Assembly (NCBI RefSeq): GCF_021172045.1
Contig: NZ_CP087164.1
Coordinates: 3,100,001 to 3,164,000 of the forward strand
Reading direction: 5' to 3'
Source: Capillimicrobium parvum
Lineage (GTDB): Bacteria; Actinomycetota; Thermoleophilia; Solirubrobacterales; Solirubrobacteraceae
DNA: 64,000 nucleotides
Shown: positions 43,354 through 58,593 of the stretch, piece by piece
Layout of the letters: each line of letters begins with the position of its first letter
Numbering within the stretch: position 1 is the first letter of the stretch
Made by a program: the position numbers and the translations under genes
Notes under the pieces: generated by a model
The model's database searches: none
What the model was told of the DNA's origin: nothing
Seen by the model: the letters and a program-made list of their open reading frames with translations, nothing else

Positions 43354-43773
43354 TCAGTCCGTGAGCTCGCGGGCGATCGCCCGGCCCCACGCGTCGATCG
43401 CGTCCCAGTCGCGGTGGTCCCCGAGCCGGCCGCCGAACGCGTGGTACAAGACACGCGACGCCAGCGGCCACATGTCACGCTCGACGACCCCCGCGAAGAC
43501 CCGGTAGTCGCGCGGCGACAGTGCTGCCCGGACCTCCGCGATGTCCCGCGGCTCGCGACGGACGAGCGGCCCGATCATGCGCTTCGTGTCGCCGAAGGCG
43601 CCCACGCTGAACAGCCACACCGGCCGGCCACGCAGCGCCGCGGCCTCGCGCCGCACGAACTCCGAGGCCTCGGGCGGCCATCGCCCGTCGTAGACGGGCG
43701 CACCGAACACCACAGCAGCCGCGCCTCCGACATCGCCGACCTCCCCCACCGCCCGAACGTCGACCGCCAGCCT
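43354..43773 (-). pseudogene. Flavodoxin-like (HemG-type) protein lacking its FMN-binding N-terminus
   Basis: The frame begins directly after the miaB stop codon with LAVDVRAVGEVGDVGGAAAV, then VFGAPVYDGRWPPEASEFVR, LRGRPVWLFSVGAFGDTKRM and ASRVLYHAFGGRLGDHRDWD. This matches residues from about 30 onward of protoporphyrinogen-oxidase-like flavodoxins. The first strand and phosphate-binding loop (T/S-x-T-x-x-T) are absent, and no frame upstream within miaB supplies them. The only start is a GTG at 43749, well inside the domain. Most likely a 5'-truncated remnant; a diverged functional short form cannot be excluded. Confidence 0.7.
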
Positions 43774-45132
43774 CTAACGCGTCGCCGCGGCCAGCAGCGA
43801 CATCTCGCCGGCCAGCGTCTGCGACGTGGCGCCGGTGATGGCGACCGCCACGATGTCCCCCGGCTCGGCCAGCCCGTCGAAGTTGACGACCTTGTTGTGG
43901 CTGGTCCGGCCCCGCAGGCGGCGCGGGTCGTGCCGTGAGGGGCCCTCGACGAGCACGTCGAGCGTGCGGCCGACGAAGCGCTGGGCGCGCTCGCGGGCGC
44001 GCCGCTGCACCACCTCGACGAGCCGCTCCATCCGCGCGGCCTTCACCTCGTGCGCCACGTCGTCGGCCATCTCGCCCGCGAGCGTGCCGCGCCGCGGCGA
44101 GAAGATGAACGTGAACGCGCCGTCGTAGCCGACCTCCTCGACGACTTCGAGGGTCTGTTCGAAGTCGGCCTCGGTCTCGCCGGGGAAGCCGACGATGACG
44201 TCGGTCGTCAGCGCGACGTCGGGCACGTGGCGGCGGATCATCTCGACGCGATCGAGGTACCGCTCGCGCGTGTACGTCCGGCGCATCGCCTTGAGGATCG
44301 CCGACGATCCGGCCTGCAGCGGCAGGTGGATGTGCTGGCAGACGCTCGGTAGCTCGGCGTGGGCGAGGACGACATCCTCGCGCATGTCCTTCGGGTGCGG
44401 GCTCGTGTAGCGGATGCGGTCGAGCCCGTCGATCGCGTCGAGCTCGCGCAGCAGCGCACTGAAATCGACCCTCGGTCGCAGATCGCGTCCGTACGAGTTG
44501 ACGTTCTGGCCGAGCAGCGTGATCTCCCGGACGCCGTCGGCGACGACCGCGCGCGCCTCGTCGACCAGCTCGCCGAGCGGTCGCGACACCTCGCGCCCGC
44601 GGGTCGAGGGGACGATGCAGTACGAGCAGTTGCAGTTGCAGCCGACCGAGATCTGCATCCACGCCTGGAACTCCCGCGCGCGTTTCATCGGCAGGTGGCC
44701 GGTGAAGCCCTCGAACTCGAAGTATCCCTGGGCGGACAGCGACTCGCTCGTCAGGAACTCAGCCAGCCGATGCACCTGCCCCGGCCCGAACGCGACGTCG
44801 ACGAACGGGAACTGGCGGAAGACGTCCTCCTTGACCGACTGCGCCCAGCAGCCCCCGACGCCGATGATGCGCTCCCGCTGCCCCCGCTTCAGCGCCTTGG
44901 CCTGGTGCAGGTGGCTGATGAAGCGCTCGTCGGCCTTCTCGCGGATCGAGCAGGTGTTGAACAGGATGAGATCGGCGTCCGCCGCCTCCCCGACCTCGGC
45001 GTACCCGAGCGACTCGAGCATGCCCTTCATGCGCTCGGAGTCGTGCTCGTTCATCTGGCAGCCGAACGTGGTGACGTGAAAGCGCTTCTGCGTTGCGGGC
45101 ACGGCCATGTCGAACACGAAGCGTAGAGCCAT
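43774..45132 (-). CDS. miaB: tRNA-2-methylthio-N6-dimethylallyladenosine synthase
   Basis: About 452 residues. The UPF0004 domain has Cys in VTTFGCQMNEHDSERM, LFNTCSIREKADE and GVGGCWAQSVKED; the radical SAM cluster is SVGCNCNCSYCIVPSTRGRE (C-x3-C-x2-C); the TRAM domain is near GRTSHNKVVNFDGLAEPGDI. It methylthiolates i6A37 made by MiaA. ATG 45132 is chosen because GGAG lies 8 bp upstream; ATG 45108 (MAVPATQKRF) is a shorter alternative. Frame continuing further upstream runs through degenerate sequence. Confidence 0.93.
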   Translation of the reverse strand: MALRFVFDMAVPATQKRFHVTTFGCQMNEHDSERMKGMLESLGYAEVGEAADADLILFNTCSIREKADERFISHLHQAKALKRGQRERIIGVGGCWAQSVKEDVFRQFPFVDVAFGPGQVHRLAEFLTSESLSAQGYFEFEGFTGHLPMKRAREFQAWMQISVGCNCNCSYCIVPSTRGREVSRPLGELVDEARAVVADGVREITLLGQNVNSYGRDLRPRVDFSALLRELDAIDGLDRIRYTSPHPKDMREDVVLAHAELPSVCQHIHLPLQAGSSAILKAMRRTYTRERYLDRVEMIRRHVPDVALTTDVIVGFPGETEADFEQTLEVVEEVGYDGAFTFIFSPRRGTLAGEMADDVAHEVKAARMERLVEVVQRRARERAQRFVGRTLDVLVEGPSRHDPRRLRGRTSHNKVVNFDGLAEPGDIVAVAITGATSQTLAGEMSLLAAATR

Positions 45133-45267
45133 CGGAATCACTCCACGGGGGACGTCCAGCAGGTGCTTGACGCCGACTCCCCGTCGCACCCGGAGAAGAT
45201 CCGACGCTGGCACGAGCTCATCGCGAACGATCGTCCGCCGGGTCGAGCTCGTCGCCGGCGCGTCCGT

Positions 45268-45728
45268 GGTCAAGGCCGGCGAGCAGCTCGTGTCCTTCGG
45301 CGAGCGGCGCGCTGGCCGGAGGTGACGGCTCCTTCCATGAAGTCCGTCGTGCCGGTCTCCGCGCCGGCGAACACGATCCGGCCGATGGGGCGGCGCAGGG
45401 TCGCGCCGACGCTGCTCAGCGTGCAGGTCGGGACCTGGCTGCCGCAGCCTCTCGACCAGGGGTCGTCCTCCCAGTTGCGGACGTAGAACTCCTTCGGCGC
45501 CCGCGCCTTGGGCTCGAAGTACGTCTCGAGCGCTTCGAGCGTCAGCGCGCGGGTCGCCTCGTCGCTGGACGGGTCGCCGCCGTACCGGGCGAGCGCGGGC
45601 CCGCTGCCGAAGAACAGCGCGCACAGGATGCCTTCGTCTCCCTCGGTCGGCGACAGGTCCAGGACCAGTGGGATCGAGGCGAGCCCGGAGGCGACGCCGG
45701 CGAGGCCGTCCTCCCGCCACCAGGGTTG
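45268..45728 (-). pseudogene. Flavin monoamine oxidase, C-terminal remnant
   Basis: A start-less stretch reads PWWREDGLAGVASGLASIPL, then CALFFGSGPALARYGGDPSS, FYVRNWEDDPWSRGCGSQVP and GRIVFAGAETGTTDFMEGAV followed by TSGQRAAR. The D-P-W-S-R-G-C and A-G-x-E-T...G-A-x-x-S-G-x-R-A-A elements are the C-terminal FAD-binding signature of amine oxidases. The FAD-binding N-terminal half is missing, and near 45283-45300 the frame shifts: the expected tail HELLAGLDHG continues in another frame. It is a dead fragment. Confidence 0.75.
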
Positions 45729-45988
45729 ACGATCGCCGCGCTGCCCTCCACGAATCGGCCGGTCCAGACGGCGCCGAAATTGCCAAGCGCGTCTACATCA
45801 CGATCGACCAGCAAGCGAGTGACGTCGAAGACTGGTTCTACGCCGTGATGGGAGCGTGCGGGGCCGCTTCTGTGCCCGTCTCCGCCGGCGACGCGCCTCG
45901 GGTCCGGTGCTGCGCGACCCGGACAGCCCGCGCGGCTGGGTACCGGCGGCCGATGGGTCGGCGACGCGGTCCTGAGCCGACCGCTGGA

Positions 45989-46081
45989 TCAGCCGGCGCC
46001 CTGTGCCCCCCAAGGGTTGGCGAGCAGCGCCAACTCGGGTTCGGCGGGGACGCGCACCTCCGCGGGCGGGAACGCCTCCGA
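45989..46081 (-). pseudogene. Short fragment resembling the FAH (fumarylacetoacetate hydrolase) fold
   Basis: About 30 residues, SEAFPPAEVRVPAEPELALL then ANPWG, directly follow the broken end of the alpha-hydroxy-acid oxidase and then stop. The V-P-x-E-P-E-L-A-L string resembles the segment before the metal site of FAH-family hydrolases. The piece is too short for certainty. Between it and the amine-oxidase fragment (45729-45988) I recognise nothing. Confidence 0.3.
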
Positions 46082-46094
46082 CCTCCACGCGGAT

Positions 46095-46853
46095 CCCCCC
46101 GGAGCGACGGATCCACGAGCGAACTGGACCGTTCGATCGTCCTACGCGGCATCGGCTCGGGAATGTGCGCGAATGCCGGCAGCCGCCCTCCCAGGAACTG
46201 TGACGTCCATGCGGGATGCCGCAGCCCGTCGATGATCGTCCGGGCCCCGATCGCCGGCGGCATGGTGAAGCCGTTGCGGGTGTCCCGCTCGCGGCCGCCA
46301 ACTGTCGGGGCGTCGGCGCCGACCAGCAGCGCCCGGTATCCCGCATCCCGCGCGCGTGTAACGATCTCGCGTGACAGGCCCCGGTCGCGCAGCATGTACA
46401 GCTGAAACCACAGCGGTCCCTGTGACGCCGCCGCGACGTCCTCGAGCGGCGTACTCGACATGGTGGAAACGGCGTAGGGCACCCCCGCAGCCGACGCGGC
46501 CCGGGCGACGTCTCGTTCTCCGCCATCACGGATCGCCCGCGTCAAGCCCGTGGGGGCAAGGGCGATCGGCAGGGCCGAGTCGCAGCCGAGTATCTCGGTG
46601 CGAAGATCGATCTCCGACACGTCGCGCATGACCCTCGGCACGAGCTCGAGCTCCTCAAGGGCGGCGCGGTTGCGGCGCACCGTCACCTCGTCCTCGCGCC
46701 ACCCTCGACGAAGTCGAAGACGGCGCGAGGGAGGAACCGCCGAGCCTCCGCACGCAGACCTCCGATGCTGTGACAGCGAGCGAGCCGCCGCCGGTCTCCG
46801 TCCGTGTCGAATGCGGGCCGTCTGATCAGCGCTACGAACTCGCGCACCGTCAC
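46095..46853 (-). pseudogene. FMN-dependent alpha-hydroxy-acid oxidase (LldD-like), frameshifted and truncated
   Basis: The N-terminus (GTG 46853) reads VTVREFVALIRRPAFDTDGD, then RRFLPRAVFDFVEGGA. One missing G near 46693 then causes ARTR and a stop, where the family has E-D-E. The main part continues in the next frame: VTVRRNRAALEELELVPRVM, LPIALAPTGLTRAI, LWFQLYMLRDRGLSREIV and LVGADAPTVGGRERDTRNGF. It breaks after SLVDPSL, before the FMN phosphate and catalytic His/Arg region. Intact relatives oxidise L-lactate or other 2-hydroxy acids. Confidence 0.85.
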
Positions 46854-47011
46854 GCGAACCCCGCCAAGCAACCCATGGTGCCGCTCATCGCGGCAAACGT
46901 AGAGGCGCCCCGTGCCGCCGGTACAGCGCAGCGTCCCAGCCAGTGAGACCGGCGCGGGCGTGGCGGGAGCCAACGGTTTGCCAGCGGCCCGCCACACGAC
47001 CACCGATCCGA

Positions 47012-47041
47012 CGCTCGGCGGGGAGACCCCCCCGCCGAGCG
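47012..47041. terminator. Strong hairpin downstream of the binding-protein gene
   Basis: A perfect 12-bp stem (CGCTCGGCGGGG with CCCCGCCGAGCG) and a 6-nt loop, about 100 bp after the end of the 47144 gene. It is a plausible terminator at the island's edge. The surrounding gap 46854-47143 contains no recognisable gene. Confidence 0.5.
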
Positions 47042-47143
47042 CCAGGCCGATGACGATGAAGGGCTGGACGTCCAGCCTGCTGGGCCCGTCGGCGAGGAGC
47101 CTGTCGAACTTCCCCCGCCGCGCGAGAGAAGATCGACAGACTC

Positions 47144-48532
47144 CTAGAGCCCCTGCTCCTGCTCGATCTTGCGCACCTTGGCGATCTGCGGATCGTCTGC
47201 CGTGACGTCGGCGCACTCGTCCTGGACGACCAGCTTGCCGGCCTTCGGCGTCAGCGTGCGCCCTGTGTTGTTGGGGATGTGCACGGGCGCCTTGCCGTAG
47301 TACCACGGCTTGCACACCAGGTCCGACTTGTAGCCCTTCGTGTCGAGCATCGCCTTGTTGACGCTCTCCTTGTCGATAGGACCGTCGATCGAGAGCAGCC
47401 GGTCGACGGTGAGCTTGGCCAGCACGAAGCCCATCTGACCGAACGACCCCACGGGCACCTTCGGGGCGTACTGATCGTGCACCTTGAGGTAGAGCTGGTT
47501 GTCCGGGCCCGTCGAGTCGACGGTGTTGACCTCGGCGTTGACCAGCAGCTTGCCCTCCCACTCCGGCCCCAGCGCCTGCGCCAGGAAGTCGGTGCTGCAC
47601 GTCGACGAGCAGCCCCACTTCACGCGGCCGGCCAGCCCCTGCTGCTGCGCGGCCTGCATGATCTTCAGCGCCTCGGGCGGCGTGAAGCCGAGCAGCACGC
47701 CGCCGTCAGCGCCCGCCTGCTGCACGAGCGTCAGGGCGATCGAGTTGGCGTCCTGGATCGGCACGTTCTCCTTCGCGAACACCATGGGGACCCCGGCGGC
47801 GTCGGCCACGGACTTGACCCCCTCCGCATACCACTCGGCGCCCGGCGTGCCTGCGGTCGCGAACACGAGCTTCTTGACGCCCTGCTTGATCAGCGCCTGC
47901 GCGCCGCCGTCCAGGCTGTAGCGCGGCCCGAGGTTGATCGAGGCGGAGTTGGGCGTCGAGAAGCACTCAGGGGCGACGCCGACGTTGGTCGTATAGAGGT
48001 CGTTGGCCTCGTAGAACGCGTGGTTCACGGCACAGTCGAGCAGCGAGAAGCTGCCGAGCATCCCCAACACCTTGTCGCTCGTGACGAGCTTTCTCGCCAG
48101 GCCGGCGATCTGCCCCGGATCGCTCTGCTCCTCCTCGACGATGTACTGGATCGGGCGACCCTTGATGCCGCCGTTGGAGTTGACGCAGTCGTAGAACGCC
48201 TGCGCCATGTTGGATGCATCGGTGAAGTCCGTGCCGGGCTGCTTGGTGACGATGGAGCCGATCTTGATCGGCTCCCCCGTGGCCTTCTGGCCGTTGCCAA
48301 GACCGCACTTCAACTCGCCGCCCGTGCTGGCTGTGGTCGACGCACCCGTGCTGGCCGTGGTCGACGCACCCGTGCTGGCCGTCGTGGACGCGGCGGTGCT
48401 CGCCGACGTCGCGGCGGTGGTGCCGGACTGGTTGTCGCTGCCGCCGCACGCCGCGAGCGCCGCGCTCGCCGCAAGCAGCGCCATCGCCGTCACCGCCCAC
48501 CGGACCCAGACCTGACCGGGATCTCTCCTCAT
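47144..48532 (-). CDS. ABC-type solute-binding lipoprotein (branched-chain amino acid/urea-like, Peripla_BP_6)
   Basis: A protein of 462 residues. The lipoprotein signal is WAVTAMALLAASAALAAC; a Ser/Thr/Ala repeat linker follows. The periplasmic-binding domain contains GEPIKIGSIVTKQPGTDFTD, GGIKGRPIQYIVEEEQSDPG, VLGMLGSFSLLDCAVNHAFY and KLVFATAGTPGAEWYAEGVK. Such proteins usually bind amino acids, amides or aromatic acids for a LivHMGF-type transporter, but no permease or ATPase gene is nearby. GAGGAGC precedes the ATG. The promoter (48639-48668) overlaps operator site 1, so it should respond to the island's regulator. Confidence 0.85.
   Translation of the reverse strand: MRRDPGQVWVRWAVTAMALLAASAALAACGGSDNQSGTTAATSASTAASTTASTGASTTASTGASTTASTGGELKCGLGNGQKATGEPIKIGSIVTKQPGTDFTDASNMAQAFYDCVNSNGGIKGRPIQYIVEEEQSDPGQIAGLARKLVTSDKVLGMLGSFSLLDCAVNHAFYEANDLYTTNVGVAPECFSTPNSASINLGPRYSLDGGAQALIKQGVKKLVFATAGTPGAEWYAEGVKSVADAAGVPMVFAKENVPIQDANSIALTLVQQAGADGGVLLGFTPPEALKIMQAAQQQGLAGRVKWGCSSTCSTDFLAQALGPEWEGKLLVNAEVNTVDSTGPDNQLYLKVHDQYAPKVPVGSFGQMGFVLAKLTVDRLLSIDGPIDKESVNKAMLDTKGYKSDLVCKPWYYGKAPVHIPNNTGRTLTPKAGKLVVQDECADVTADDPQIAKVRKIEQEQGL
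48321..48392 (-). repeat. Three 24-bp repeats coding for a Ser/Thr linker
   Basis: Copies at 48321-48344, 48345-48368 and 48369-48392 (first two differ at one base). They encode A-S-T-T-A-S-T-G-type linker units between the lipid anchor and binding domain. Confidence 0.8.
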
Positions 48533-48638
48533 CGCTCCTCCTCGTCTGCCTTGTGCGCCGGCGCGCGTGTGATCCGCTGCGCTGGGCGATCACGCCCGGA
48601 CGGCCGACTCACGGCCGCCGGCTGCGCTCACGGTGAGG

Positions 48639-48668
48639 ACCGTAGACAAAATCTGTACACGCTGTCAA
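48639..48668 (-). promoter_or_regulatory. Promoter of the solute-binding protein gene
   Basis: On the minus strand TTGACA (48663-48668), an 18-bp spacer and TACGGT (48639-48644). The -35 box lies inside operator site 1. Confidence 0.55.
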
Positions 48669-48669
48669 G
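48653..48669. promoter_or_regulatory. Operator site 1 of the catabolic island
   Basis: CTGTACACGCTGTCAAG. Its reverse complement matches site 2 (51862-51878) at 16 of 17 positions. It is an imperfect palindrome around ACA-nnn-TGT and lies between the divergent binding-protein and P450 genes. Confidence 0.65.
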
Positions 48670-48716
48670 CTAAGCGCCGACGGTCGCCACAACTTCGAGG
48701 AGGAGAGAGTCGCCCG

Positions 48717-49901
48717 ATGCCACCCGTCACCAGCGCCCCACCCACGCATGACCTGGATCTCTTCGCCGACGAGGTTCTCGTCGATCCGTATCCCGCGTAC
48801 GCGGAGCTGCGAGAGCTCGCCGGCGCCGTCCACCTGCCGGCCAACGACGTGTACGCGCTGACGCGCTACGACGTGATCCGCGGTGCGCTCGCGGACTGGG
48901 AGACGTTCTCGTCAGCCTCGATCGGGTTCAACCCGATGGTCAACGAGGCGCTCACCGGAACGTCGCTCGCGTCCGATCCACCGGTCCACACCCAGCTGCG
49001 AGCCGTCCTGACCGAGAACCTGACCCCGCGCGCCCTGCGCGGCCTGAAGGACACGATCGACGCGAAGGCCGACGCCCTCGTGGCCGGGCTCGTCGAGCGG
49101 CGCTCCTTCGAGGCGATCGACGCCCTCGCCCGGGCGTTCCCGCTCGAGGTCGTCGCCGACCTCATCGGCTTCACCGGCCAGGTCCGCGACAACATGCTGC
49201 GCTGGGGCCAGGCCGCGATGGAGGTCATCGGCCCGATGAACGCCCGCACCGCCGAGAACTTCCCCATCGCCGGCGAGCTCTACGGCTGGTGCTCGACCGT
49301 GACCGCCGACGACCTCGCGCCCGGCTCGGTGGGACGCGGCATCTTCGACGCCGAGGCGCGGGGCGACATCCCGCCGGACACGGCGGGCCACATCATCCAC
49401 CAGTACCTCGGCGCGGGCGTCGACACGACGGTCGCGGTGATCGGCAACGTCGTCGCGCTCCTCGGGAAGCATCCCGACCAGCTGGCGCTCGTCCGCCAGG
49501 ACCCTGCGCTCGTGCCGGCCGCGTTCAACGAGGTGCTCCGCTTCTGGCCGCCGATCCACGCCTGGGGCCGTCGCGCGACGAAGGACGTCGAGGTCGACGG
49601 CGTCGTCGTTCCCGCCGGCGCGCAGATCGCCATCCTCTTCGGCGCGGGCAACCACGACCCGCGCCACTACGAGAACCCGGACGACTTCCTGGTCGAGCGC
49701 AACCCTGTCGACCACCTCACGTTCGGCTACGGGGTCCACGGCTGCGCGGGCCAGGGACTCGCCCGCATGGAGGGGCACGCCGTGATCGCGGCGCTGGCCC
49801 GGCACGCCGAGCGGCTCGTGGTCGGCGACGAGGCGCGCGTTCCGAGCAACATCACCCGGAGCATCCACGAGCTCCCCGTCCTGGAAGTGGTGCGAGCATG
49901 A
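48717..49901 (+). CDS. Cytochrome P450
   Basis: A protein of 394 residues, soluble bacterial type. The I-helix oxygen-binding motif is LGAGVDTT (231-238), the K-helix E-x-x-R is EVLR (272-275), and the heme ligand is Cys343 in FGYGVHGCAGQGLARME. ATG 48717 follows GAGGAGAGAG, a clear ribosome binding site. It should hydroxylate, epoxidise or dealkylate the island's substrate, receiving electrons from the next two genes. The ferredoxin ATG overlaps its stop (ATGA). It is divergent from the solute-binding protein across operator site 1. Confidence 0.95.
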   Translation: MPPVTSAPPTHDLDLFADEVLVDPYPAYAELRELAGAVHLPANDVYALTRYDVIRGALADWETFSSASIGFNPMVNEALTGTSLASDPPVHTQLRAVLTENLTPRALRGLKDTIDAKADALVAGLVERRSFEAIDALARAFPLEVVADLIGFTGQVRDNMLRWGQAAMEVIGPMNARTAENFPIAGELYGWCSTVTADDLAPGSVGRGIFDAEARGDIPPDTAGHIIHQYLGAGVDTTVAVIGNVVALLGKHPDQLALVRQDPALVPAAFNEVLRFWPPIHAWGRRATKDVEVDGVVVPAGAQIAILFGAGNHDPRHYENPDDFLVERNPVDHLTFGYGVHGCAGQGLARMEGHAVIAALARHAERLVVGDEARVPSNITRSIHELPVLEVVRA

Positions 49902-50086
49902 AGATCGTCCTCGATCGAGCCCGCTGTGAGGGTCACGGCCTGTGCGAGGAGGCCGCCCCGGACCTGATGCACCTCGACGACGATGGCGAGCTGGTGATCG
50001 ACCGCGAGGAGATCACCGAGGCCGAGCTGGCCGCCGCGAACGCCGCCGTGCGGGTATGCCCGGTGGCGGCACTGCGGATCGAATGA
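49898..50086 (+). CDS. Small ferredoxin with C-x-x-H-x-x-C cluster motif
   Basis: A protein of 62 residues. The cluster residues are C10, H13 and C16 in CEGHGLC, then C54 in VRVCPVAAL. A histidine replaces the second cysteine of the standard 4Fe-4S motif, as in the P450-partner ferredoxins of actinobacteria that carry 3Fe-4S or His-ligated clusters. Its position between the P450 and its reductase leaves little doubt about its role. Both ends overlap neighbours by ATGA. Confidence 0.95.
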   Translation: MKIVLDRARCEGHGLCEEAAPDLMHLDDDGELVIDREEITEAELAAANAAVRVCPVAALRIE

Positions 50087-51243
50087 GCGCCGCCGCGATC
50101 AGGCGGATCGTCGTCGTCGGCAACGGGATCGCCGGCCTGACGGCCGCGGACTCGCTGCGCGGCGCGGGGTTCGACGGCGAGCTGACGATCATCGGCGACG
50201 AGCGCCATCCGGCCTGCAGCCGCCCGGCTCTGTCGAAGGCACTGCTCAGCGACTGCGCCGACCTGACGTCCCATCAGCTGCCCGCACCGACGCACGGCGC
50301 GCTCGAGATCGCCGGTCGTCGTGCCTGCGGGCTCGACGCCGAGCGCCGGCGCGTGGCCCTCGACGATGGCACCGAGCTGCCCTACGACCGGCTCGTGGTG
50401 GCCACGGGCTCGCGCGCGCGTCGCCTGTCCGACCTGGCCGGCGAGCTCACCCTGCGTGGGCTCGACGACGCGCTCGCCCTGCGCGAGCGCCTCGCCGCAC
50501 GGCCGTCGGTCGTCGTCGTCGGAGGCGGACCGCTCGGCATGGAGGTCGCGTCGGGCTGCGTGGCCGCCCGCTGCCAGGTGACGGTCGTCTCTCAGGGCAT
50601 GCCACTCGAGATGCAGCTGGGCCCGCACCTCGCCAGGGTCTTCGCCGAGGCCGCGCAGGGTCGGGGCGTCGCCCTCGTGCAGACCGAGTCGGCGCGCCTG
50701 GAGGAGCACGGCGGCGCGACGAGGGTCGTCCTCGAGGAGGACATCGTCCTGGAGGCGGAGCTCGTCGTCTCTGCCGTCGGCGACGTCCCGAACACGGAGT
50801 GGCTGGCCGGCACGAGCCTCGTCACCGACGGCGTCGTCCGCGTCGACGCCCGCGGGCTCGCACGACCGGACGTCGCGGCCGTCGGAGACCTCGCCGTCTT
50901 CCCGACGCCGTACGGCATGCGGCGGATCCCGCTGTGGAGCACCGCGATCGCGCACAGCAAGGTGGCGGCCGCGGCGCTCGTCCACGGCGAGGCGGCGCCG
51001 CCGCTGCAGTTCCAGCCGTACTTCTGGACCGAGCAGTTCGGGCTGAGCCTCAAGGCCGTCGGGTTCCTGCCGCTGAACGGCCCGCCCGTCTATGTCGACG
51101 GCGGGCCCGGAGGCCCCGCGCTGATGCGCTGGACCCACGAGGACGGCCGCGGCGCCGCGGCCGCGCTGAACTACCGGATCCCGATCCCGCGGTTGCGGCG
51201 GATCACGGAGGACGCGGCTACCGGCGCTCGCCGAGCAGCGTGA
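50083..51243 (+). CDS. NAD(P)H-ferredoxin reductase (FAD)
   Basis: A protein of 386 residues of the putidaredoxin-reductase/rubredoxin-reductase type. FAD motif IVVVGNGIAGLTAADSLRGA, then RHPACSRPALSKALL, LVVATGSRARRL, the NAD(P) motif SVVVVGGGPLGMEVASG and AAVGDLAVFPT. The C-terminal domain contains FWTEQFGLSLKAVGFL. It passes electrons from NAD(P)H to the ferredoxin. Its last 26 bp overlap the convergent TetR gene. Confidence 0.95.
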   Translation: MSAAAIRRIVVVGNGIAGLTAADSLRGAGFDGELTIIGDERHPACSRPALSKALLSDCADLTSHQLPAPTHGALEIAGRRACGLDAERRRVALDDGTELPYDRLVVATGSRARRLSDLAGELTLRGLDDALALRERLAARPSVVVVGGGPLGMEVASGCVAARCQVTVVSQGMPLEMQLGPHLARVFAEAAQGRGVALVQTESARLEEHGGATRVVLEEDIVLEAELVVSAVGDVPNTEWLAGTSLVTDGVVRVDARGLARPDVAAVGDLAVFPTPYGMRRIPLWSTAIAHSKVAAAALVHGEAAPPLQFQPYFWTEQFGLSLKAVGFLPLNGPPVYVDGGPGGPALMRWTHEDGRGAAAALNYRIPIPRLRRITEDAATGARRAA

Positions 51244-51832
51244 CCCACGTCTCGGTGAGGAGATCGAGCTCCGGCCCGCTGTCGAGGTCCCACGGGTCGC
51301 GCATCCAGTGCAGCGCCGTCCGGTCGAGGGTCTCCATCGCGAGAAAGCCGCGGAAGTGGCGTGTCTCGGGAGCGTGGCGGTCGGCGAGGTTCATGCCGTC
51401 GACCATGTCGCCGATGACCTCCTCGAACCACCCCTCGTAGAGCTGGCGGATCTCCGGATCGACGGCGGCGGCCTGGGTGCTGACGAGGATGTACGGCTTG
51501 ATCTGCGGCCACCTCGAGGCCTGCGTCGCGAGCCAGGGCTTCAGCGCGGCGGCGGTCCCGATCTGCACCGCCTCGACCAGCTTCGACGCGGTCGAGCCGT
51601 GCGCCTCCGAGGTGTGGCGGTCGAGGAGCTCGTTGAGCTCGTCGATGAGCGCCACCATGACGTCGCGCTTGCCGGGGAAGCGCGCGTAGAACGTCACCCG
51701 CGTCGTCCCGGCCCGGGCGGCGATCTCCTCGACGGTGGTCGCCACATAGCCCTTCTGCTGGAACAGCGCGAGTGCCGTCTCGAGGATCTGCTTCCGCGTC
51801 CGCTCCTTGCGCAGTGCGCGGAGGCCGGTCAT
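51218..51832 (-). CDS. TetR-family regulator of the catabolic island
   Basis: A protein of 204 residues. LRKERTRKQILETALALFQQ, then KGYVATTVEEIAARAGTTRV and TFYARFPGKRDVMVALI are the DNA-binding helices. The rest is a ligand-binding domain (LATQASRWPQIKPYILVS, YEGWFEEVIGDMVDGMNL). The ATG at 51832 lies 30 bp from operator site 2; GTG 51841 is an alternative. Its place between the two operons, divergent from one and tail-to-tail with the other, makes it the likely repressor acting at both operator sites, with a pathway compound as inducer. Confidence 0.9.
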   Translation of the reverse strand: MTGLRALRKERTRKQILETALALFQQKGYVATTVEEIAARAGTTRVTFYARFPGKRDVMVALIDELNELLDRHTSEAHGSTASKLVEAVQIGTAAALKPWLATQASRWPQIKPYILVSTQAAAVDPEIRQLYEGWFEEVIGDMVDGMNLADRHAPETRHFRGFLAMETLDRTALHWMRDPWDLDSGPELDLLTETWVTLLGERR

Positions 51833-51861
51833 GCGGGGCACCTTAACGAACGACGCGTTTT

Positions 51862-51878
51862 CTTGACAGCGTGTAAAG
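51862..51878. promoter_or_regulatory. Operator site 2 of the catabolic island
   Basis: CTTGACAGCGTGTAAAG, an imperfect palindrome (C-T-T-n-A-C-A-n-n-n-T-G-T-n-A-A-G, 6 of 8 base pairs symmetric). It sits between TetR and the hydrolase operon. Confidence 0.7.
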
Positions 51879-51892
51879 CGTTTGCGTATCTT
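51863..51892 (+). promoter_or_regulatory. Promoter of the hydrolase operon, leaderless
   Basis: TTGACA (51863-51868), an 18-bp spacer and TATCTT (51887-51892), then 7 bp to the GTG at 51900. The -35 box is inside operator site 2, so a bound repressor would block RNA polymerase. Confidence 0.7.
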
Positions 51893-51899
51893 CGAGACC

Positions 51900-52871
51900 G
51901 TGAACAAGAGGGTCAACACCGTTCTCGGTCCCGTTGCGGCCGACGAGCTCGGGGTCGTCGCGGTCCACGAGGCGCTGCTCTCGGTCATCCCCGGAGCGGA
52001 GCACGCATACGACGTCACCATCGATCGCGCCGCTATCTTCGAGCGTCTCGCCGGCAAGCTGGACGAGTTCCGCCGCCACGGCGGCGGGACGATCGTGGAC
52101 AGCACGGGCATGTTCCACGGCCGTGACGTCCGGCTGTACGAGGCCCTCTCGCGCTCGACGGGCGTGCACATCGTCGCGTCGACGGGCATGGGCCCGGAGG
52201 AGATGCTCGGCGGGTACTTCCTCACGCCGCAGACGAATCCGCCGACCCCCTGGTCGGCGGAGATGTTCGCCGACCTCTTCGCCAGGGAGGTCACCGAGGG
52301 CATGGTGGTCCCGCGGGTCGAGCGGCGCGGCGGGGCCGGGCTCGTCGCCACGGCCGCCGACCGAGCGGGCATGACGGCCACCGAGGAGAGCCTGTTCCGG
52401 GGCGCCGCCCAGGCGGCCCTCGCCACCGGGGTTCCGGTCTCCATCCGCTACGGGGCCGATGCGGTGCGCGAGCTCGACATCGTCCTGGGCGAGCGCCTGC
52501 CTGCCGGCCGGGTCGTCGTCGGCGGCCTGGACCGCACGGACGCCGCAGGCAGCGGAGCCCCGCTCGACGTGGCGCGCCGGGGCGCGTTCGTCGCGCTCGA
52601 CCACGTCGGCCGCGACGACGACGGCGCCTACCTGACCGACCGCGACCGGGCCGCGCTCGTGGCTGAGCTGGTCGACGCAGGCCACGCGGACCGCATCCTG
52701 CTTTCTAGCAGCGCGATCGGCGCGGCCAAGGGCCAACCGGACGACGCACTGCCCTACAGCCATGTCCTGTCCGGCTTCGTGCCGCTCCTGATGTCGCACG
52801 GGCTCGGCGACGCGGATGTCCGGCGCCTCCTGGTGGACAACCCGCGCGAGCTGCTGTCCACGGTCTCCTGA
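51900..52871 (+). CDS. Phosphotriesterase-family paralogue lacking the metal ligands (probable pseudoenzyme)
   Basis: A protein of 323 residues that aligns along its length with the next gene product (VNTVLGPVAADELGVVAVHE versus VNTVLGPIPTEELGFVAVHE; ending LLVDNPRELLSTVS versus LFVDNPASFLTIQS). The family binds two metals through H-x-H, a carboxylated Lys, two His and an Asp. Here H23 remains, but the other positions are A25, A150, R183, G209 and S271. It therefore cannot hold the usual binuclear site. The frame is intact and it is first in the operon, so it is unlikely to be a simple pseudogene; a structural partner or sensor role is possible. Confidence 0.85.
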   Translation: MNKRVNTVLGPVAADELGVVAVHEALLSVIPGAEHAYDVTIDRAAIFERLAGKLDEFRRHGGGTIVDSTGMFHGRDVRLYEALSRSTGVHIVASTGMGPEEMLGGYFLTPQTNPPTPWSAEMFADLFAREVTEGMVVPRVERRGGAGLVATAADRAGMTATEESLFRGAAQAALATGVPVSIRYGADAVRELDIVLGERLPAGRVVVGGLDRTDAAGSGAPLDVARRGAFVALDHVGRDDDGAYLTDRDRAALVAELVDAGHADRILLSSSAIGAAKGQPDDALPYSHVLSGFVPLLMSHGLGDADVRRLLVDNPRELLSTVS

Positions 52872-52882
52872 AGGGGCATGTC

Positions 52883-53836
52883 GTGTCGAGAGTGAACACC
52901 GTCCTGGGGCCCATCCCGACCGAGGAGCTCGGGTTCGTGGCGGTCCACGAGCACATCGGGTACGGCATGCCCGGCTGCGAGCTGGACACGAAGTGGTGGA
53001 AGACGCCGGAGGAGCGCTACGAGGAGACCGTCCCGAAGCTGCGCCGGTTCCACGAGTACGGGGGCGGGACCTTCGTCGATGCCACCGGCATCTGCAACGG
53101 CCGCGACGTCGACTACTACAAGTCGCTGGCGGCCAGGACCGGTGTGCACATCGTCGCCTGCACCGGGTTCGTCGGCGGCGACACCGCGCTTGCGTTCTTC
53201 GCCCGGGCGAGCGTCGAGTACCTGACCCGGCAGTTCGTCCACGAGATCACCGTCGGCATCGGCGACACCGGCAGCAAGGCGGGCATCATCAAGGTGGGCG
53301 TCAGTCGCGGCTTTCGCATGACGGACCTCGACAAGCGCATCTACCGGGCCGCCGCCCGCGCCGCGGTCACCACGGGCGTGCCCATCTTCACGCACCTCGC
53401 CGTCGACTCGGAGCCGGCGATCGACATCTTCCGCGAGGAGGGCCTCTCGCTCGACCGGGTCCTCTTCGGGCACGCCGACGATGGCGTGAGCCAGGGGAAG
53501 GTGCGTGACACCGAGATCGCCGACCAGGGCGGCCGGATCGGCTTCGACACCTTCGGCTACGACCTCGAGCTGCCCGACCCGCCGTTCTGGGGGCGCCCGC
53601 GCAAGGAGCGGCTCGATCACCTCCTGCGCTTCATCCGCGGTGGCTATCTCGATCGGGTGCTGGCCTCGGCCGACGCCAACTGCAGCCCGCTGGGGTGGCC
53701 GGGCGTCAAGGGGCACACCGTGAACTACCTCTTCGAGGAGCTCATCCCCGACCTGCGAGAGGCCGGGATCGACGAGGCGACGATCACCACGCTGTTCGTC
53801 GACAACCCGGCCAGCTTCCTCACGATCCAGAGCTAA
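52883..53836 (+). CDS. Phosphotriesterase-family metallohydrolase (lactonase/amidohydrolase-like)
   Basis: A protein of 317 residues. All metal ligands are visible: H22 and H24 (VHEH), K137 (GIIKVGVS, the carboxylated lysine), H171 (IFTHLAV), H197 (LFGHADD) and D264 (ASADAN). The start V-N-T-V-L-G-P-I and end L-F-V-D-N-P-A-S-F-L are standard. Family members hydrolyse lactones, esters, amides or organophosphates. AAGGGGC precedes the GTG start. It lies 11 bp after its degenerate paralogue, so both are made together. Confidence 0.92.
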   Translation: MSRVNTVLGPIPTEELGFVAVHEHIGYGMPGCELDTKWWKTPEERYEETVPKLRRFHEYGGGTFVDATGICNGRDVDYYKSLAARTGVHIVACTGFVGGDTALAFFARASVEYLTRQFVHEITVGIGDTGSKAGIIKVGVSRGFRMTDLDKRIYRAAARAAVTTGVPIFTHLAVDSEPAIDIFREEGLSLDRVLFGHADDGVSQGKVRDTEIADQGGRIGFDTFGYDLELPDPPFWGRPRKERLDHLLRFIRGGYLDRVLASADANCSPLGWPGVKGHTVNYLFEELIPDLREAGIDEATITTLFVDNPASFLTIQS

Positions 53837-53848
53837 GGGCAAGGAACC

Positions 53849-54955
53849 ATGCACCCCTCAGACCTGAAGGACCTGAAGGTCGCCGTCGTGGGCGGCGGGT
53901 ACGGCGGCGCCGCCGCCGCCGCGGCGCTGCGCAACATCGGCGTGGGCGACGTCCACGTGTACGAACGGGCGGCCGCGGTTCGCGAGGTCGGCGCCGGCAT
54001 CGGCCTGCGTCCGGCGACGGTGGAGCTGTTCCGCAAGTGGGGCATCTACGAGGCGATCGCCGCGGTGACCTCGCCCAGCGACTCCTTCGAGATCCTCACC
54101 GCCACCGGCCACGTCCTCCACCGCGAGGAATGGCCTGCCTCCGAGCACGAGACCAAGACCCGCTTCGTCCACCGCGACGACTTCATCAACGCGTTCCTCG
54201 ACGTCCTGCCCGCGGGCATGCTGCACATCGGCCGGCGGGTGACCGGCATCGAGGACGGCACGGAGCGCGCGACGGTGGTCTTCGCCGATGGGGCGTCGGT
54301 GACCGCGGATCTCGTGATCGGGGCGGACGGCATCCGCTCGCTCGTGCGCCAGCAGCTGTTCTCCGACGTTCCCCCCGTGTTCTCGGAATCCCACGCCTAC
54401 CGGGCGGTGATCTCCGCCGACGACACCTACGGTATGACGATCGACGACAACCTACGCCTCTACATCGGCGACAACGGCACGACGATCTACTTCCTGCCCC
54501 TGCGCCACCGCAACCAGGTGTCCTTCGACATCACGGCACCCTCCGCCGATGCATCCTGGTCCCCCGAGATCACCAAGGCCGACCTCATGCGGCTGGTCGA
54601 GGGCTTCGACGAGCGGCTGCAGAGCATCACGCGTGACCTGGACATGGACCTGGTCACGAGCCGGGCGGTGTACGACATCGACCCGATCGACACCTGGCAC
54701 ACGGACTGCGTCGCCCTGCTCGGCGATGCGGCGCACGCGATGCTCCACCATCAGGGCCAGGGCGCGAACTCGGCCATCACCGACGCCGGCGCCCTGGCTG
54801 ACGCCCTGGTCAAGGCGGACTCGGTCAAGGCGGCGCTGGTCGAGTACCAGGCGGTCCGCAAGCCGGTGACCGACGAGCTGCAGCGCATCTCCCGGCTGGG
54901 CTGGGACGCCGGAGCCGTCGAGACGGCGTTCCCCGGCCAGAAGGGTGCGGAGTAG
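53849..54955 (+). CDS. FAD-dependent monooxygenase (group A, salicylate-hydroxylase-like)
   Basis: A protein of 368 residues. FAD motif VAVVGGGYGGAAAAAALRNI, the D-G motif DLVIGADGIRSLVRQQLF, and the G-D motif VALLGDAAHAMLHHQGQGAN. The middle domain contains RAVISADDTYGMTIDDNLRL. Group A enzymes hydroxylate aromatic rings or oxidise activated rings with NAD(P)H and oxygen. Its place after a lactonase-like hydrolase suggests it works on a hydrolysis product. 12 bp separate it from the upstream gene. Confidence 0.92.
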   Translation: MHPSDLKDLKVAVVGGGYGGAAAAAALRNIGVGDVHVYERAAAVREVGAGIGLRPATVELFRKWGIYEAIAAVTSPSDSFEILTATGHVLHREEWPASEHETKTRFVHRDDFINAFLDVLPAGMLHIGRRVTGIEDGTERATVVFADGASVTADLVIGADGIRSLVRQQLFSDVPPVFSESHAYRAVISADDTYGMTIDDNLRLYIGDNGTTIYFLPLRHRNQVSFDITAPSADASWSPEITKADLMRLVEGFDERLQSITRDLDMDLVTSRAVYDIDPIDTWHTDCVALLGDAAHAMLHHQGQGANSAITDAGALADALVKADSVKAALVEYQAVRKPVTDELQRISRLGWDAGAVETAFPGQKGAE

Positions 54956-54959
54956 CGCC

Positions 54960-55850
54960 ATGCCCCTGCACCCTGAAGTCGCCCGGGTCGTCGTCACGAT
55001 GCCCGCACCGCCCGACGAGCTTGACCCGGTGGCGATGCGCGCCGACCAGGAGGCACACGTGCCGCCCCTCGACGAGCGCCTCCCGCTGGCCGCGGTGCAG
55101 GACGCGACCGCGGGTGACGTGCCGGTGCGGATCTACACGCCGACCGGCGCCGACGGCTGGCTCGTGTACATCCACGGCGGCGCGTTCTTCCTCGGCAGCC
55201 TCGACACCCACGACCATGTCGCTCGATCGCTGGCCGAGGCGACCGGGGCCACGGTGGTCTCCGTCGGCTATCGCCTGGCGCCGGAGGCGCCATACCCGGC
55301 GGGTCTCGACGACTGCTACGCCGTGGTCCGGTGGATGGCCGAGCACGGCAGGACGATGGCGATCGCCGGCGACAGCTCGGGCGCGAACTTCGTCGCCGCC
55401 GTCGCCGCGATGGCGCACGACGACGACCTCGACGCCATCACCGATCAGATCCTCTACTACCCCTCACTCGACCTGGACTTCGACCCGGACCGCTACGCCT
55501 CCCTGCGCGAGAACGCCGTCGGCTACGGGCTGGAGACCGTGGGGCTGAAGCCCTTCAACGCCTTCTACGTCGACAGCGGCGCGGACCCGGCGGATCCGCT
55601 CGTCTCCCCCATCAAGCGCGCAGACCTGACCGGGCTGCCGCGCGCCCTCGTCGTGACCGCCGAATATGACCCCATGCGCGACGAGGGGGAGCTGTACGCG
55701 CGACGGCTGAGCGAGGCCGGCGTGGATGTCGTGCTCAGCCGGTACGCCGGCGCCGGCCACGGCTTCGTCGAGCACTTCTCCTGGATCCCCGAGTTCCACC
55801 GGGTCTTCGAGGAGACGCGCGACTTCCTCGATCGGACGAGCACACCATGA
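54960..55850 (+). CDS. Alpha/beta hydrolase (hormone-sensitive-lipase family esterase)
   Basis: A protein of 296 residues. Oxyanion-hole motif LVYIHGGAFFLGSLDTH (H-G-G-A at 72-75), nucleophile Ser139 in IAGDSSGANF, an acid in VVTAEYDPMRDEGELYARRL and the His in GAGHGFVEHFS. This is a complete family IV esterase triad. It should cleave an ester of small or medium size. A GGAG stretch precedes the ATG, and its end overlaps the MBL gene (ATGA). Confidence 0.93.
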   Translation: MPLHPEVARVVVTMPAPPDELDPVAMRADQEAHVPPLDERLPLAAVQDATAGDVPVRIYTPTGADGWLVYIHGGAFFLGSLDTHDHVARSLAEATGATVVSVGYRLAPEAPYPAGLDDCYAVVRWMAEHGRTMAIAGDSSGANFVAAVAAMAHDDDLDAITDQILYYPSLDLDFDPDRYASLRENAVGYGLETVGLKPFNAFYVDSGADPADPLVSPIKRADLTGLPRALVVTAEYDPMRDEGELYARRLSEAGVDVVLSRYAGAGHGFVEHFSWIPEFHRVFEETRDFLDRTSTP

Positions 55851-56779
55851 CGCAGCCGGCGAGCATCCATCCGCTGCCCGCGCGGTGGGGCGACTTCACG
55901 CTGGGCAGCTACTTCATCGCCGCGCCCGAGCCGGCCATCGTCGACACCGGGATCGCCTCGACGCCGGCCGAGGTGATCGCTCCTCGGCTCGAGGAGCTCG
56001 GGCACCGGGTCGAGGACGTCCGCTGGATCCTGCTGACGCACGGCCACATCGACCATGTCGGCGGCGCCCATGCGCTCTGGGAGCTCACGGGTCGCCGCGC
56101 GCAGGTCGTGATCCACGAGGCCGATGCGCCGTTCCTGCGTTCGCGCCGGGCGCATGTCGACGAGTACGTCGGCGGCCGTCAGCGCTATCTGCGGGATCCG
56201 AACGGCGTCGCGCAGCTGACGCGGGCCACCGAGGCGGTGATATCGGGAGAGATGGAGCCATCCGTGGTCCTGACGGGAGGCGAGACGCTCTCCCTCGGCG
56301 GGGAGGTGTCGGTCTCGGTCCACCATGTGCCGGGTCACACGGCGGGAGCGGTCGCGTACGTCGTCGACGGCTCCAACGACGTGTTCGTCGGCGACGCCGT
56401 GGAGATCAACGGCGGCAACGGCTTTCCGACCTACGAGGACCCGGTCGGCTATCGCGCCGGCCTGGAGCACCTGCGCGACGTCGTACGCCCGAACCGCATG
56501 TTCCTGGGCCACCCGTTCGTCGGCCGGGACGGGGTGCCCTACAGCATCGAGCTCGACCGCGAGGCGGCGCAGCGGGCGCTGCAGGAGAGCCTGGACATCG
56601 AGGCGCGCATCGCCGGGCTTGCAGCGCGCTGTCTGGCCGACGGCCTGCAGGAGACCGACTCGGTCTACTCGCCGTTCGCGCTGGTCGCCGAAGAGCTCGG
56701 CTACGAGCGCGATCCGAGCCTGGAGCCGTCGCCGTTCTTCACCACGCTGCACGGCTATCGGCAGGCGGCTCGCGCATGA
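55847..56779 (+). CDS. Metallo-beta-lactamase-fold hydrolase
   Basis: A protein of 310 residues. Metal-site motifs: LLTHGHIDHVGGA (H-x-H-x-D-H), HHVPGHTAGAVAYV, VFVGDAVEI and MFLGHPFVG. All binuclear ligands are present. Related proteins act as lactonases, thioesterases or glyoxalase II. The C-terminal third is helical and contains PFALVAEELGYERDPSLEPS. It overlaps both neighbours by ATGA. Confidence 0.9.
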   Translation: MTQPASIHPLPARWGDFTLGSYFIAAPEPAIVDTGIASTPAEVIAPRLEELGHRVEDVRWILLTHGHIDHVGGAHALWELTGRRAQVVIHEADAPFLRSRRAHVDEYVGGRQRYLRDPNGVAQLTRATEAVISGEMEPSVVLTGGETLSLGGEVSVSVHHVPGHTAGAVAYVVDGSNDVFVGDAVEINGGNGFPTYEDPVGYRAGLEHLRDVVRPNRMFLGHPFVGRDGVPYSIELDREAAQRALQESLDIEARIAGLAARCLADGLQETDSVYSPFALVAEELGYERDPSLEPSPFFTTLHGYRQAARA

Positions 56780-58458
56780 CGGAGATCACGATTCGCAAGG
56801 ACCTACAGGTCGCGATGCGCGACGGGGTCATGCTCGCGGTCGACGTCTACCAGGGAACCGAGGACAAGCCGCGGCCTGCGCTCGTCGCGATGAGCCCCTA
56901 CGGCAAGGACCTCCAGGCGCAGTCGCTCGAGCTCCCGCCGCAGCGGCGTCCCAGCCCGCTGTGGGACGGCTGCCTCGAGGCCGGGGACATCGCGCGCATC
57001 GTCGCCGAGGACTACGCCCACGTGATCGCCGATCTGCGCGGGTCCGGCGCGTCCGGCGGCGAGATGGTCGGCAACTACAACGCCGGCGGCGTCCCGCTCG
57101 GCCAGGACGCCTACGACCTCATCGAATGGGTCGCGCAGCAGCCGTGGTGCGACGGCAACGTCGGCATGGTCGGGGTCTCCTACTTCGCCTCCATGCAGGT
57201 GTTCGCCGCCGCCGAGCGGCCCCCGCATCTGAAGGCGATCTTCGTGAGCGGCGGCCACTACGACTTCTACGAGACCACCTACCACGGCGGCATCATGTGG
57301 TTCATGCCGCGCGCCGCCCGAGAGGGCCGCGGCGGCGACTCCGGCATCGCCGTCGCGGACGTCAGGTCGCGCATGCTCGCGGAGTACTCGGCGGAGGAGG
57401 TCGCGCAGCGCGTGGCGGCACGGCTCGCCGACCCCGACGTCAAGCGGTGGCCGACCCTGGAGCACGTCCTGCGGTACCCGAAGAACCGCGAGCTGTGGTT
57501 CGACATCGTCCTCAACGAGCTCGACGGCGACTGGTACGAGGAGCGCAACCCCATCACGCTCGCCCGGAACATCGACATCCCCGTCTATGTGCAGATCAAC
57601 TGGGGTCGCGGCTGGACGGTCGACGGCAGCATCGAGCTCTTCAAGACGCTCAAGGGCCCGAAGAAGCTCGACCTGCTGCCCTACCCGCCGATGCAGGAGC
57701 GCCCGTTTCACGAGGTCCACGGCGACATGTTCCGCTGGTACGACCACTGGCTGAAGGGCGTCGAGAACGGCGTGATGGACGAGCCGGCCGTCAGCATCTT
57801 CGTCGAGGGCACGCGCGAGCGGGTGACCGTCGACGACTGGCCGCCCCAGGGGGTCGAGCATCGGCCGCTGTACCTGCGTCCCCGGCGCAAGCTGTCGGCG
57901 ACGCCCGAACCGCTGGACACCGAGTGGGCCGCCCCGGACGGCTTCTACCAGGCGCCCCTGACCGTGACGGACAAGGTGGAGATGCTGACGTGGTCCACCG
58001 AGCCGTTCGAGGCGACGACGCAGATGGTCGGCACCGGCGCCGCCCATCTCTTCGTGGAGATCGACACCGACGACACGAATCTCATCCTGCGTCTGTGGGA
58101 CGAGGCTCCGGGCGGCGGTCGTCAGCTCGTCACGACCGGCTACCTCAAGGCATCGCATCGCGAGCTCGACGACCGCACCACGGAGGGCAACCCCTACCAC
58201 CCGCACACCCGTGCCGTGCCGGTCGAGCCCGGGCGCGTCGAGGAGTACGTGGTCCGGCTGTATCCGTTCGCCAACGCCTTCCGACCGGACCATCGCCTCG
58301 TGGTCGAGTTGTCGTGCAACGAGCCGCTGGTCGACGCCCACAACTCGCTGCTGCCCCCCGAGGCGATGCACCTGCCGTCCGGGCGCGCGACGGGCCACAA
58401 GATCTACCGCGATGCGACGCACCATTCGCGGCTCGTGCTGCCCTTCACGACCGACTGA
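56776..58458 (+). CDS. CocE/NonD-type hydrolase (X-Pro dipeptidyl-peptidase S15 family)
   Basis: A protein of 560 residues. The N-terminal alpha/beta-hydrolase domain has VAMRDGVMLAVDVYQG, YAHVIADLRGSGASGGEM and the nucleophile Ser135 in GMVGVSYFASMQVF. FHEVHGDMFRWYDHWLKGVE holds the probable catalytic His. The C-terminal jelly-roll (LYLRPRRKLSATPEP onward, about 375-560) is the S15 domain. CocE enzymes hydrolyse bulky esters (cocaine-like), others hydrolyse amides. It ends the operon. Confidence 0.92.
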   Translation: MTEITIRKDLQVAMRDGVMLAVDVYQGTEDKPRPALVAMSPYGKDLQAQSLELPPQRRPSPLWDGCLEAGDIARIVAEDYAHVIADLRGSGASGGEMVGNYNAGGVPLGQDAYDLIEWVAQQPWCDGNVGMVGVSYFASMQVFAAAERPPHLKAIFVSGGHYDFYETTYHGGIMWFMPRAAREGRGGDSGIAVADVRSRMLAEYSAEEVAQRVAARLADPDVKRWPTLEHVLRYPKNRELWFDIVLNELDGDWYEERNPITLARNIDIPVYVQINWGRGWTVDGSIELFKTLKGPKKLDLLPYPPMQERPFHEVHGDMFRWYDHWLKGVENGVMDEPAVSIFVEGTRERVTVDDWPPQGVEHRPLYLRPRRKLSATPEPLDTEWAAPDGFYQAPLTVTDKVEMLTWSTEPFEATTQMVGTGAAHLFVEIDTDDTNLILRLWDEAPGGGRQLVTTGYLKASHRELDDRTTEGNPYHPHTRAVPVEPGRVEEYVVRLYPFANAFRPDHRLVVELSCNEPLVDAHNSLLPPEAMHLPSGRATGHKIYRDATHHSRLVLPFTTD

Positions 58459-58593
58459 CCGTGACGCCCCGGCCGAGCGCTCAACCAACGACAGCGACCG
58501 CCTCCGGGGCAGGGAGCTCCGCTCACGACGCCTGCCGCCCGCTCCCGCCGCCTGCGGCATCGGATGAGCAGGCCGTCTGAGCGACCGCTCCTT

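Follow-up and report, generated by a model that had tools for sequence, protein, structure and literature searches.

The window analysed here is a stretch of 64,000 bases, 3,100,001-3,164,000 of the one-contig 5.95-Mb genome of Capillimicrobium parvum. Positions 47144-58458 of the window hold eleven consecutive genes. They encode a solute-binding lipoprotein (SBP), a cytochrome P450 with a ferredoxin and a ferredoxin reductase, a TetR-family regulator, two proteins of the phosphotriesterase (PTE) family, a group A flavin monooxygenase (FMO), and three hydrolases of the HSL, MBL-fold and CocE types (Table 1). Coding-frame analysis and searches with Pfam and NCBIfam hidden Markov models find all eleven genes of the families named in a preliminary description of this sequence, and every reading frame is uninterrupted. 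The GC content of the region is 70-72%.

Table 1. The gene cassette, its predicted operators and the island that holds it, with positions in the window
Feature	Positions	Strand	Basis or remark
Inserted island	45118..58593		between miaB (43774-45117, -) and rny (58594-60039, -)
Amine-oxidase C-terminal remnant	45273..45797	-	Amino_oxidase 1.3e-16, positions 294-441 of 443
Truncated FMN-dependent alpha-hydroxyacid dehydrogenase remnant	45838..46686	-	FMN_dh 1.2e-55, profile positions 22-186 of 350 only
SBP, Peripla_BP_6, LIV type	47144..48532	-	Pfam 4.8e-36; host-specific addition
Predicted TetR operator site 1, CTTGACAGCGTGTACAG	48653..48669	-	between SBP and P450
Cytochrome P450	48717..49901	+	Pfam 4.1e-27; CYP199 2.7e-74
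Ferredoxin, single-cluster, CxxHxxC...CP type	49898..50086	+	Fer4_15 1.2e-13; sequence
Ferredoxin reductase, HcaD-like, Pyr_redox_2	50083..51243	+	profile searches
TetR-family regulator	51218..51832	-	TetR_N 6.5e-16
Predicted TetR operator site 2, CTTGACAGCGTGTAAAG	51862..51878	+	between TetR and PTE1; holds TTGACA, a -35-like hexamer for PTE1
PTE1, predicted PTE-fold pseudoenzyme	51900..52871	+	Pfam 1.1e-38; five of six metal ligands lost
PTE2, metal-competent phosphotriesterase-like hydrolase/lactonase	52892..53836	+	Pfam 7.2e-52; six of six ligands present
Group A FMO, FAD_binding_3	53849..54955	+	Pfam; nearest solved relatives
HSL/LipP1-like alpha/beta-hydrolase esterase, Abhydrolase_3	54960..55850	+	HGG and GDSxGG motifs
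MBL-fold hydrolase, Lactamase_B	55847..56779	+	HxHxDH in 77 of 78
CocE/NonD-type hydrolase, Peptidase_S15 and PepX_C	56776..58458	+	CocE_NonD 242 bits

By their layout, the genes form at least four transcription units. SBP and TetR are each read alone from the reverse strand, while the P450, ferredoxin and reductase genes form one forward unit and the six genes from PTE1 to CocE another. Spacing is -4 and -4 bases in the three-gene unit (overlaps of four bases) and 20, 12, 4, -4 and -4 bases in the six-gene unit. An interval of 656 bases, with TetR inside it, separates the two forward operons. Strands and spacings thus do not agree with the single operon of the preliminary description. The same account counted four hydrolase folds. 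These are four families with only three folds: the alpha/beta-hydrolase fold is common to HSL and CocE. The hydrolases themselves are one fewer since PTE1, a predicted pseudoenzyme, has no catalytic metal site.

A relative of PTE2 was found by a tblastn search of plasmid sequences. It is carried by plasmid p2 of Caballeronia insecticola and shows 75.9% identity. Around it (NC_021295.1, about 124.5-134.7 kb), the same ten genes occur in the same order, TetR-P450-ferredoxin-reductase-PTE-PTE-FMO-HSL-MBL-CocE, with enzymes that are 56-76% identical to those of the window. Unlike the window, this cluster has no SBP, has a porin and an MFS transporter downstream, and has its TetR gene co-directional with the rest. 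It is annotated gene by gene, and no pathway description was found for the cluster.

A two-sequence PTE2 alignment was used to scan 84,980 species genomes, and the best 80 of 82 matches were taken; the scan depends on two peptide patterns, so 80 loci are no upper bound on the true number. In total, 82 loci (the window and 81 further loci, 1.6 Mb) were compared. Actinobacterial carriers include Streptomyces, Nonomuraea, Nocardia, Rhodococcus, Arthrobacter, Nocardioides, Corynebacterium, Microbacterium, Geodermatophilus and others, and proteobacterial carriers include Caballeronia, Paraburkholderia, Janthinobacterium, Marinobacterium and Paracoccus. A six-gene core, PTE1-PTE2-FMO-HSL-MBL-CocE, is intact in 73 of the 82 loci, window included. 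Its gene order is identical in 71 of the 73 complete loci, and five of the six genes are on the same strand in all 73; the most frequent deviation is an inverted MBL gene. Recurrence of this order is far beyond chance. A chance neighbourhood of unrelated genes is ruled out by the synteny together with the shared operator described below. The earlier proposal of a single, co-inherited pathway is borne out in this respect, since co-occurrence in other genomes was examined and 81 further loci have the same set.

The P450-ferredoxin-reductase trio is present in about 60% of the loci. It can lie upstream or downstream of the core and on either strand, and the comparison shows it to be an exchangeable front end of the cassette. 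SBP, which the preliminary description had included in the set, is not conserved: among the 82 loci it is restricted to the window. Two tandem paralogues, 68 and 63% identical to it, are located at 676-679 kb of the host genome, adjoining a LIV-type ABC transporter. SBP is a local paralogue of the host genome's own LIV-type binding proteins. The region of these paralogues (668-687 kb, L015) also holds two sets of 2-oxoacid/acetoin dehydrogenase E1-like genes. In a metagenome-assembled genome of the Microbacteriaceae (L082:2150-6015), TetR and PTE1 are separated by another kind of ABC transporter, whose binding protein is of the Peripla_BP_4 type. Here a binding protein was recruited into the cassette a second time and independently.

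The SBP/P450 and TetR/PTE1 spacers have a 17-bp imperfect palindrome in common, CTTGACAgcgTGTAMAG. Allowing up to two mismatches, the operator CTTGACA-NNN-TGTAAAG has exactly two sites in the 5.95-Mb genome, and both are at the cassette control regions. The TetR-P450 spacer of Caballeronia contains the perfect palindrome CTTTACAcgaTGTAAAG. Across the 82 loci, 81 sites match TTKACANNNTGTMAA with at most one mismatch; 78 of them are at most 350 bp upstream of a cassette gene, spread over 60 loci. As a control, 60 permuted palindromes have 1.2 sites on average and occur in three loci at most. In most loci that have no site, a GntR/UTRA regulator is found instead. A self-contained regulon around one TetR gene, as proposed at the outset, is therefore a well-supported prediction. 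Because of the conserved footprint and the general mode of TetR regulators, TetR would be expected to bind the 17-bp site and to be released by a compound of the pathway. The TTGACA arm of the operator may double as a -35-like element for PTE1, whose message, judged by eye, would be nearly leaderless. An additional operator-like site, AATCTACATTATGTCAAGT, is the same in two Rhodococcus loci (L031:16812 and L052:19097), where it follows the cassette and has no recognised cassette gene after it.

A metal-less but conserved partner of a phosphotriesterase is unusual, and such a partner is found in PTE1. In OpdA, the metal ligands are H55, H57, K169, H201, H230 and D301. When 82 PTE2 homologues are aligned to OpdA, all six ligands are present, each in 79-82 of the sequences, gaps and single exceptions aside. 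In the corresponding alignment of PTE1, five ligands (H57, K169, H201, H230 and D301) are lost in all 81 sequences; position H201 is Arg in 74 of them, and H55 is retained in 68. At least 97% invariance is seen at 88 of the 323 positions of PTE1, copies elsewhere are 53-80% identical to the window's, and the gene is directly upstream of PTE2 in nearly all loci. The AlphaFold2 model of PTE1 (pLDDT 91, pTM 0.90) resembles PTE structures with TM scores of 0.77-0.85. Judged by these residues and this model, PTE1 would have the PTE fold without being a catalytic PTE, and would form a conserved pseudoenzyme-enzyme pair with PTE2. The pairing is kept across phyla, which points to a function, be it as a scaffold, in regulation or as half of an active site.

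PTEs are homodimers. For PTE1 and PTE2 a heteromer is the simplest reading, to which we give about an even chance. The most conserved stretch of PTE1, GGYFLTPQTNPPTPW (about 104-118), overlaps the sole low-confidence segment of this monomer model (102-114); a loop that takes on order only with a partner could well look like this. A recent tandem duplication as the source of the pair is ruled out, because the two proteins are only 31% identical. Adaptation to organophosphate pesticides was also rejected: PTE2 is just 34% identical to OpdA, and a recent xenobiotic adaptation would not be as widespread and divergent as the cassette is. Against the organophosphate hydrolase model NF041153, with a cut-off of 500 bits, PTE2 scores 125 bits and PTE1 71 bits. 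In the proteobacterial cassettes L038, L058, L067 and L068, a gene for a CobW-type (COG0523) metallochaperone is found just upstream of the GntR gene; its product perhaps loads PTE2 or MBL with metal.

The nearest solved relatives of the P450 belong to CYP199. FMO scores 140 bits with tropone 2-monooxygenase, 132 bits with 6-hydroxynicotinate 3-monooxygenase and 122 bits with salicylate hydroxylase, and stays under every NCBIfam curated cut-off of known function. The substrates of its nearest solved relatives are tropone, 6-hydroxynicotinate, salicylate, vanillate and 4-hydroxybenzoate. HSL is related to LipP1 at 262.6 bits, below the cut-off of 350 bits (NF058653). Fold neighbours of MBL are TTHA1429, PqsE and a Bacillus paraoxonase, with TTHA1429 and PqsE ranking above B3 enzymes. 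Its score against subclass B3 beta-lactamases (NF033105) is 76 bits, the cut-off being 240 bits, and an antibiotic-degrading B3 lactamase was rejected on the score and on the closer fold of TTHA1429 and PqsE. PqsE has aroyl-acetyl thioesterase activity, which may serve as a lead to the function of MBL. CocE exceeds the TIGR00976 cut-off of 66.3 bits with 242 bits, and its GxSY nucleophile motif is found in all 78 sequences.

Further indications of the substrate come from the neighbours of the cassette in other hosts. These include 3-hydroxybenzoate 6-monooxygenase (21 loci), gentisate dioxygenase-like proteins (13 loci), mycothiol-dependent maleylpyruvate isomerase (15 loci) and the phenol-2-monooxygenase family (5 loci), with 4-hydroxybenzoate 3-monooxygenase beside the cassette in L084. 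The gentisate genes occur in several arrangements (L025/L060, L030, L035, L064, L088, L092). Transport neighbours are aromatic-acid/H+ symporters (5 loci) and MetA-type porins (8 loci). Genes like those for PcaI, PcaJ (a CoA-transferase type) and PcaF lie near the cassette in 13, 17 and 7 loci. In L021 a gap of 12 bp separates CocE from the start of a PcaF thiolase gene, and in L093 CocE is followed at short intervals by PcaI-PcaJ-PcaF; thiolase and CoA-transferase genes in this place suggest a 3-oxo acid as the end product of the core. The substrate is probably aromatic, and probably a compound made by plants or microbes. It had been expected to contain several ester, lactone or amide bonds. 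This is possible; the neighbours elsewhere point to an aromatic compound that feeds hydroxybenzoate and 3-oxoacid metabolism.

The cassette lies in an island inserted between miaB and rny. In ten relatives with both genes seen, they are about 2 bp to 1.4 kb apart; here the distance is 13.5 kb. Among 299 genomes sampled from the class, the cassette was found in just one, the criterion being a PTE2 match with E <= 1e-40. A tree built from the concatenated core genes places the window on a deep branch of its own and unites the proteobacterial clusters in a single clade; no donor is claimed from this tree, whose support values were not inspected. No repeats of at least 12 bases were found between the flanks tested, and no integrase was seen in the island. 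The insertion and the distribution argue that the cassette was acquired horizontally and has spread across phyla. Soil actinobacteria and Burkholderiales carry it together with its own switch, and it seems to be passed from phylum to phylum. Two decayed flavoenzyme remnants stand side by side at the island's edge (45273-46686, -), and are scars of earlier insertions or deletions. About 1.4 kb from this edge, beyond miaB, ARAGORN places a 91-nt tRNA-Val (tac) at 43635-43725 (-). The call overlaps a predicted coding gene (43354-43713) and is possibly spurious. A radical SAM gene of the Rv2578c family with an intein (41758-43317, -; NF038136, Hint domain) scores just under the family cut-off and may be divergent or mis-started.

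On balance, the genes are probably a horizontally acquired, ligand-induced catabolic cassette with a stepwise route. The comparison of loci shows its six-gene core, its exchangeable P450 trio, and a TetR gene with a conserved 17-bp operator at both promoter regions. In the proposed route, TetR would repress the P450/SBP and PTE1 promoters until the substrate or an intermediate binds to it. SBP would capture the compound in this host, and the P450 would hydroxylate or O-dealkylate it. FMO could then oxygenate the resulting phenol or acid, leading to decarboxylation or dearomatisation of the ring. PTE2, in a heteromer with the metal-less PTE1, may open a lactone-like intermediate, a step that we propose tentatively, at slightly less than even chances. 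Ester, 1,3-dicarbonyl or amide bonds that are still left would be cleaved by HSL, MBL and CocE. The products would probably be a hydroxybenzoate, a 3-oxo acid or both, which in other hosts could enter gentisate or protocatechuate routes and CoA-transferase/thiolase steps. A bolder version is a ring opening independent of dioxygenases, in which the P450 and FMO dearomatise an aromatic or tropone-like ring, and a heteromeric PTE1-PTE2 lactonase, with PTE1 as obligate subunit, and the three hydrolases lead to the 3-oxo acid. This version is decidedly unlikely.

Several observations weigh against the proposed cassette and its route. The P450 trio is not within 10 kb in about 40% of the loci. Many gentisate neighbours are from Streptomyces loci with one common arrangement, so their counts are not independent. 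There is no ring-cleavage dioxygenase within the cassette. In the host genome, where the search covered these two functions but not gentisate dioxygenase or other routes, no PcaIJ-type CoA-transferase exceeds the cut-off and a close 3-hydroxybenzoate 6-hydroxylase (3HB6H) is lacking (best 34%); therefore neither is an obligatory partner. The P450 also aligns with a gap/Thr region and His/Gln at Arg92/Ser95 and Arg243/Ser244, which we take to be the carboxylate site by which CYP199A4 binds benzoate. Since these residues are not kept, benzoate itself is not an expected substrate, and benzoate demethylation of the CYP199 type was rejected. The missing dioxygenase, host counterparts and carboxylate residues, as well as the presence of several hydrolases, would suit a non-aromatic substrate such as a terpenoid, a polyketide lactone or a cyclic ketone, with the hydroxybenzoate genes as mere neighbours on catabolic islands. 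Such a substrate is nevertheless quite unlikely: hydroxybenzoate hydroxylases of different families (3-hydroxybenzoate 6-, 4-hydroxybenzoate 3- and phenol 2-monooxygenases) and aromatic-acid transporters recur in varied arrangements and genera, and the nearest solved FMOs work on aromatic or pseudoaromatic rings.

Alternatively, the genes may be a detoxification module. TetR would sense a toxic natural product (an antibiotic or allelochemical), the enzymes would inactivate it, and a DHA2-type MFS protein would export it. This reading is unlikely, since nine coordinated enzymes exceed the needs of inactivation, several hosts have carbon-assimilating neighbours (CoA-transferase, thiolase, gentisate enzymes), and others have uptake-type genes instead of efflux (binding proteins in the window and L082, aromatic-acid symporters, MetA-type porins). 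It would account for the control by TetR, for the presence in 19 loci of MFS genes of the DHA2 efflux family, which in some cases (L054, L092, L097) stand directly behind the same operator, and for a host without a downstream PcaIJ-type CoA-transferase above the cut-off. A distant relationship links FMO to tetracycline destructases and, likewise, MBL to B3 beta-lactamases, with both scores far under the cut-offs. That the genes serve separate pathways and are neighbours by chance would agree with the several transcription units and with a P450 trio and SBP that are not universal. Strict co-occurrence and order across phyla and the one common operator make it extremely improbable; it is refuted for the six-gene core, and left only for SBP and partly for the P450 trio. 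With the catabolic cassette as the preferred reading, the gene set lends itself to testing, since it comes down to one operator, one six-gene core and one ligand.

In the full-text literature searched, which covers few subscription journals, no account of this gene set or of any PTE pseudoenzyme was found, so a prior description is possible. The statement that no pathway with this gene set had been described is consistent with that literature, most subscription journals being outside it. Known systems resemble parts of the cassette. Like the cassette, CYP199 systems (CYP199A4 and relatives), the nearest by sequence, have a P450 with its own ferredoxin and reductase; unlike them, the cassette has a single-cluster ferredoxin of the CxxHxxC type and a P450 embedded among hydrolases. 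Salicylate, 6-hydroxynicotinate and tropone monooxygenases are group A enzymes of the same sequence family as FMO, which differs in its own conserved motif around HxMLHHQGQGANSA. PTE2 shares the six metal ligands and the fold family with OPH/OpdA and the phosphotriesterase-like lactonases, but unlike these it is always paired with a metal-less paralogue. The aqd and bxd-type catabolic clusters and vitamin B6 degradation combine, like the cassette, an FMO with an alpha/beta hydrolase or MBL lactonase and a regulator. To our knowledge, they have other gene sets, without a PTE pair, CocE or P450 trio. Catabolic islands controlled by TetR are already known; to these the cassette adds a conserved pseudoenzyme-enzyme pair and a core not found described in the literature searched.

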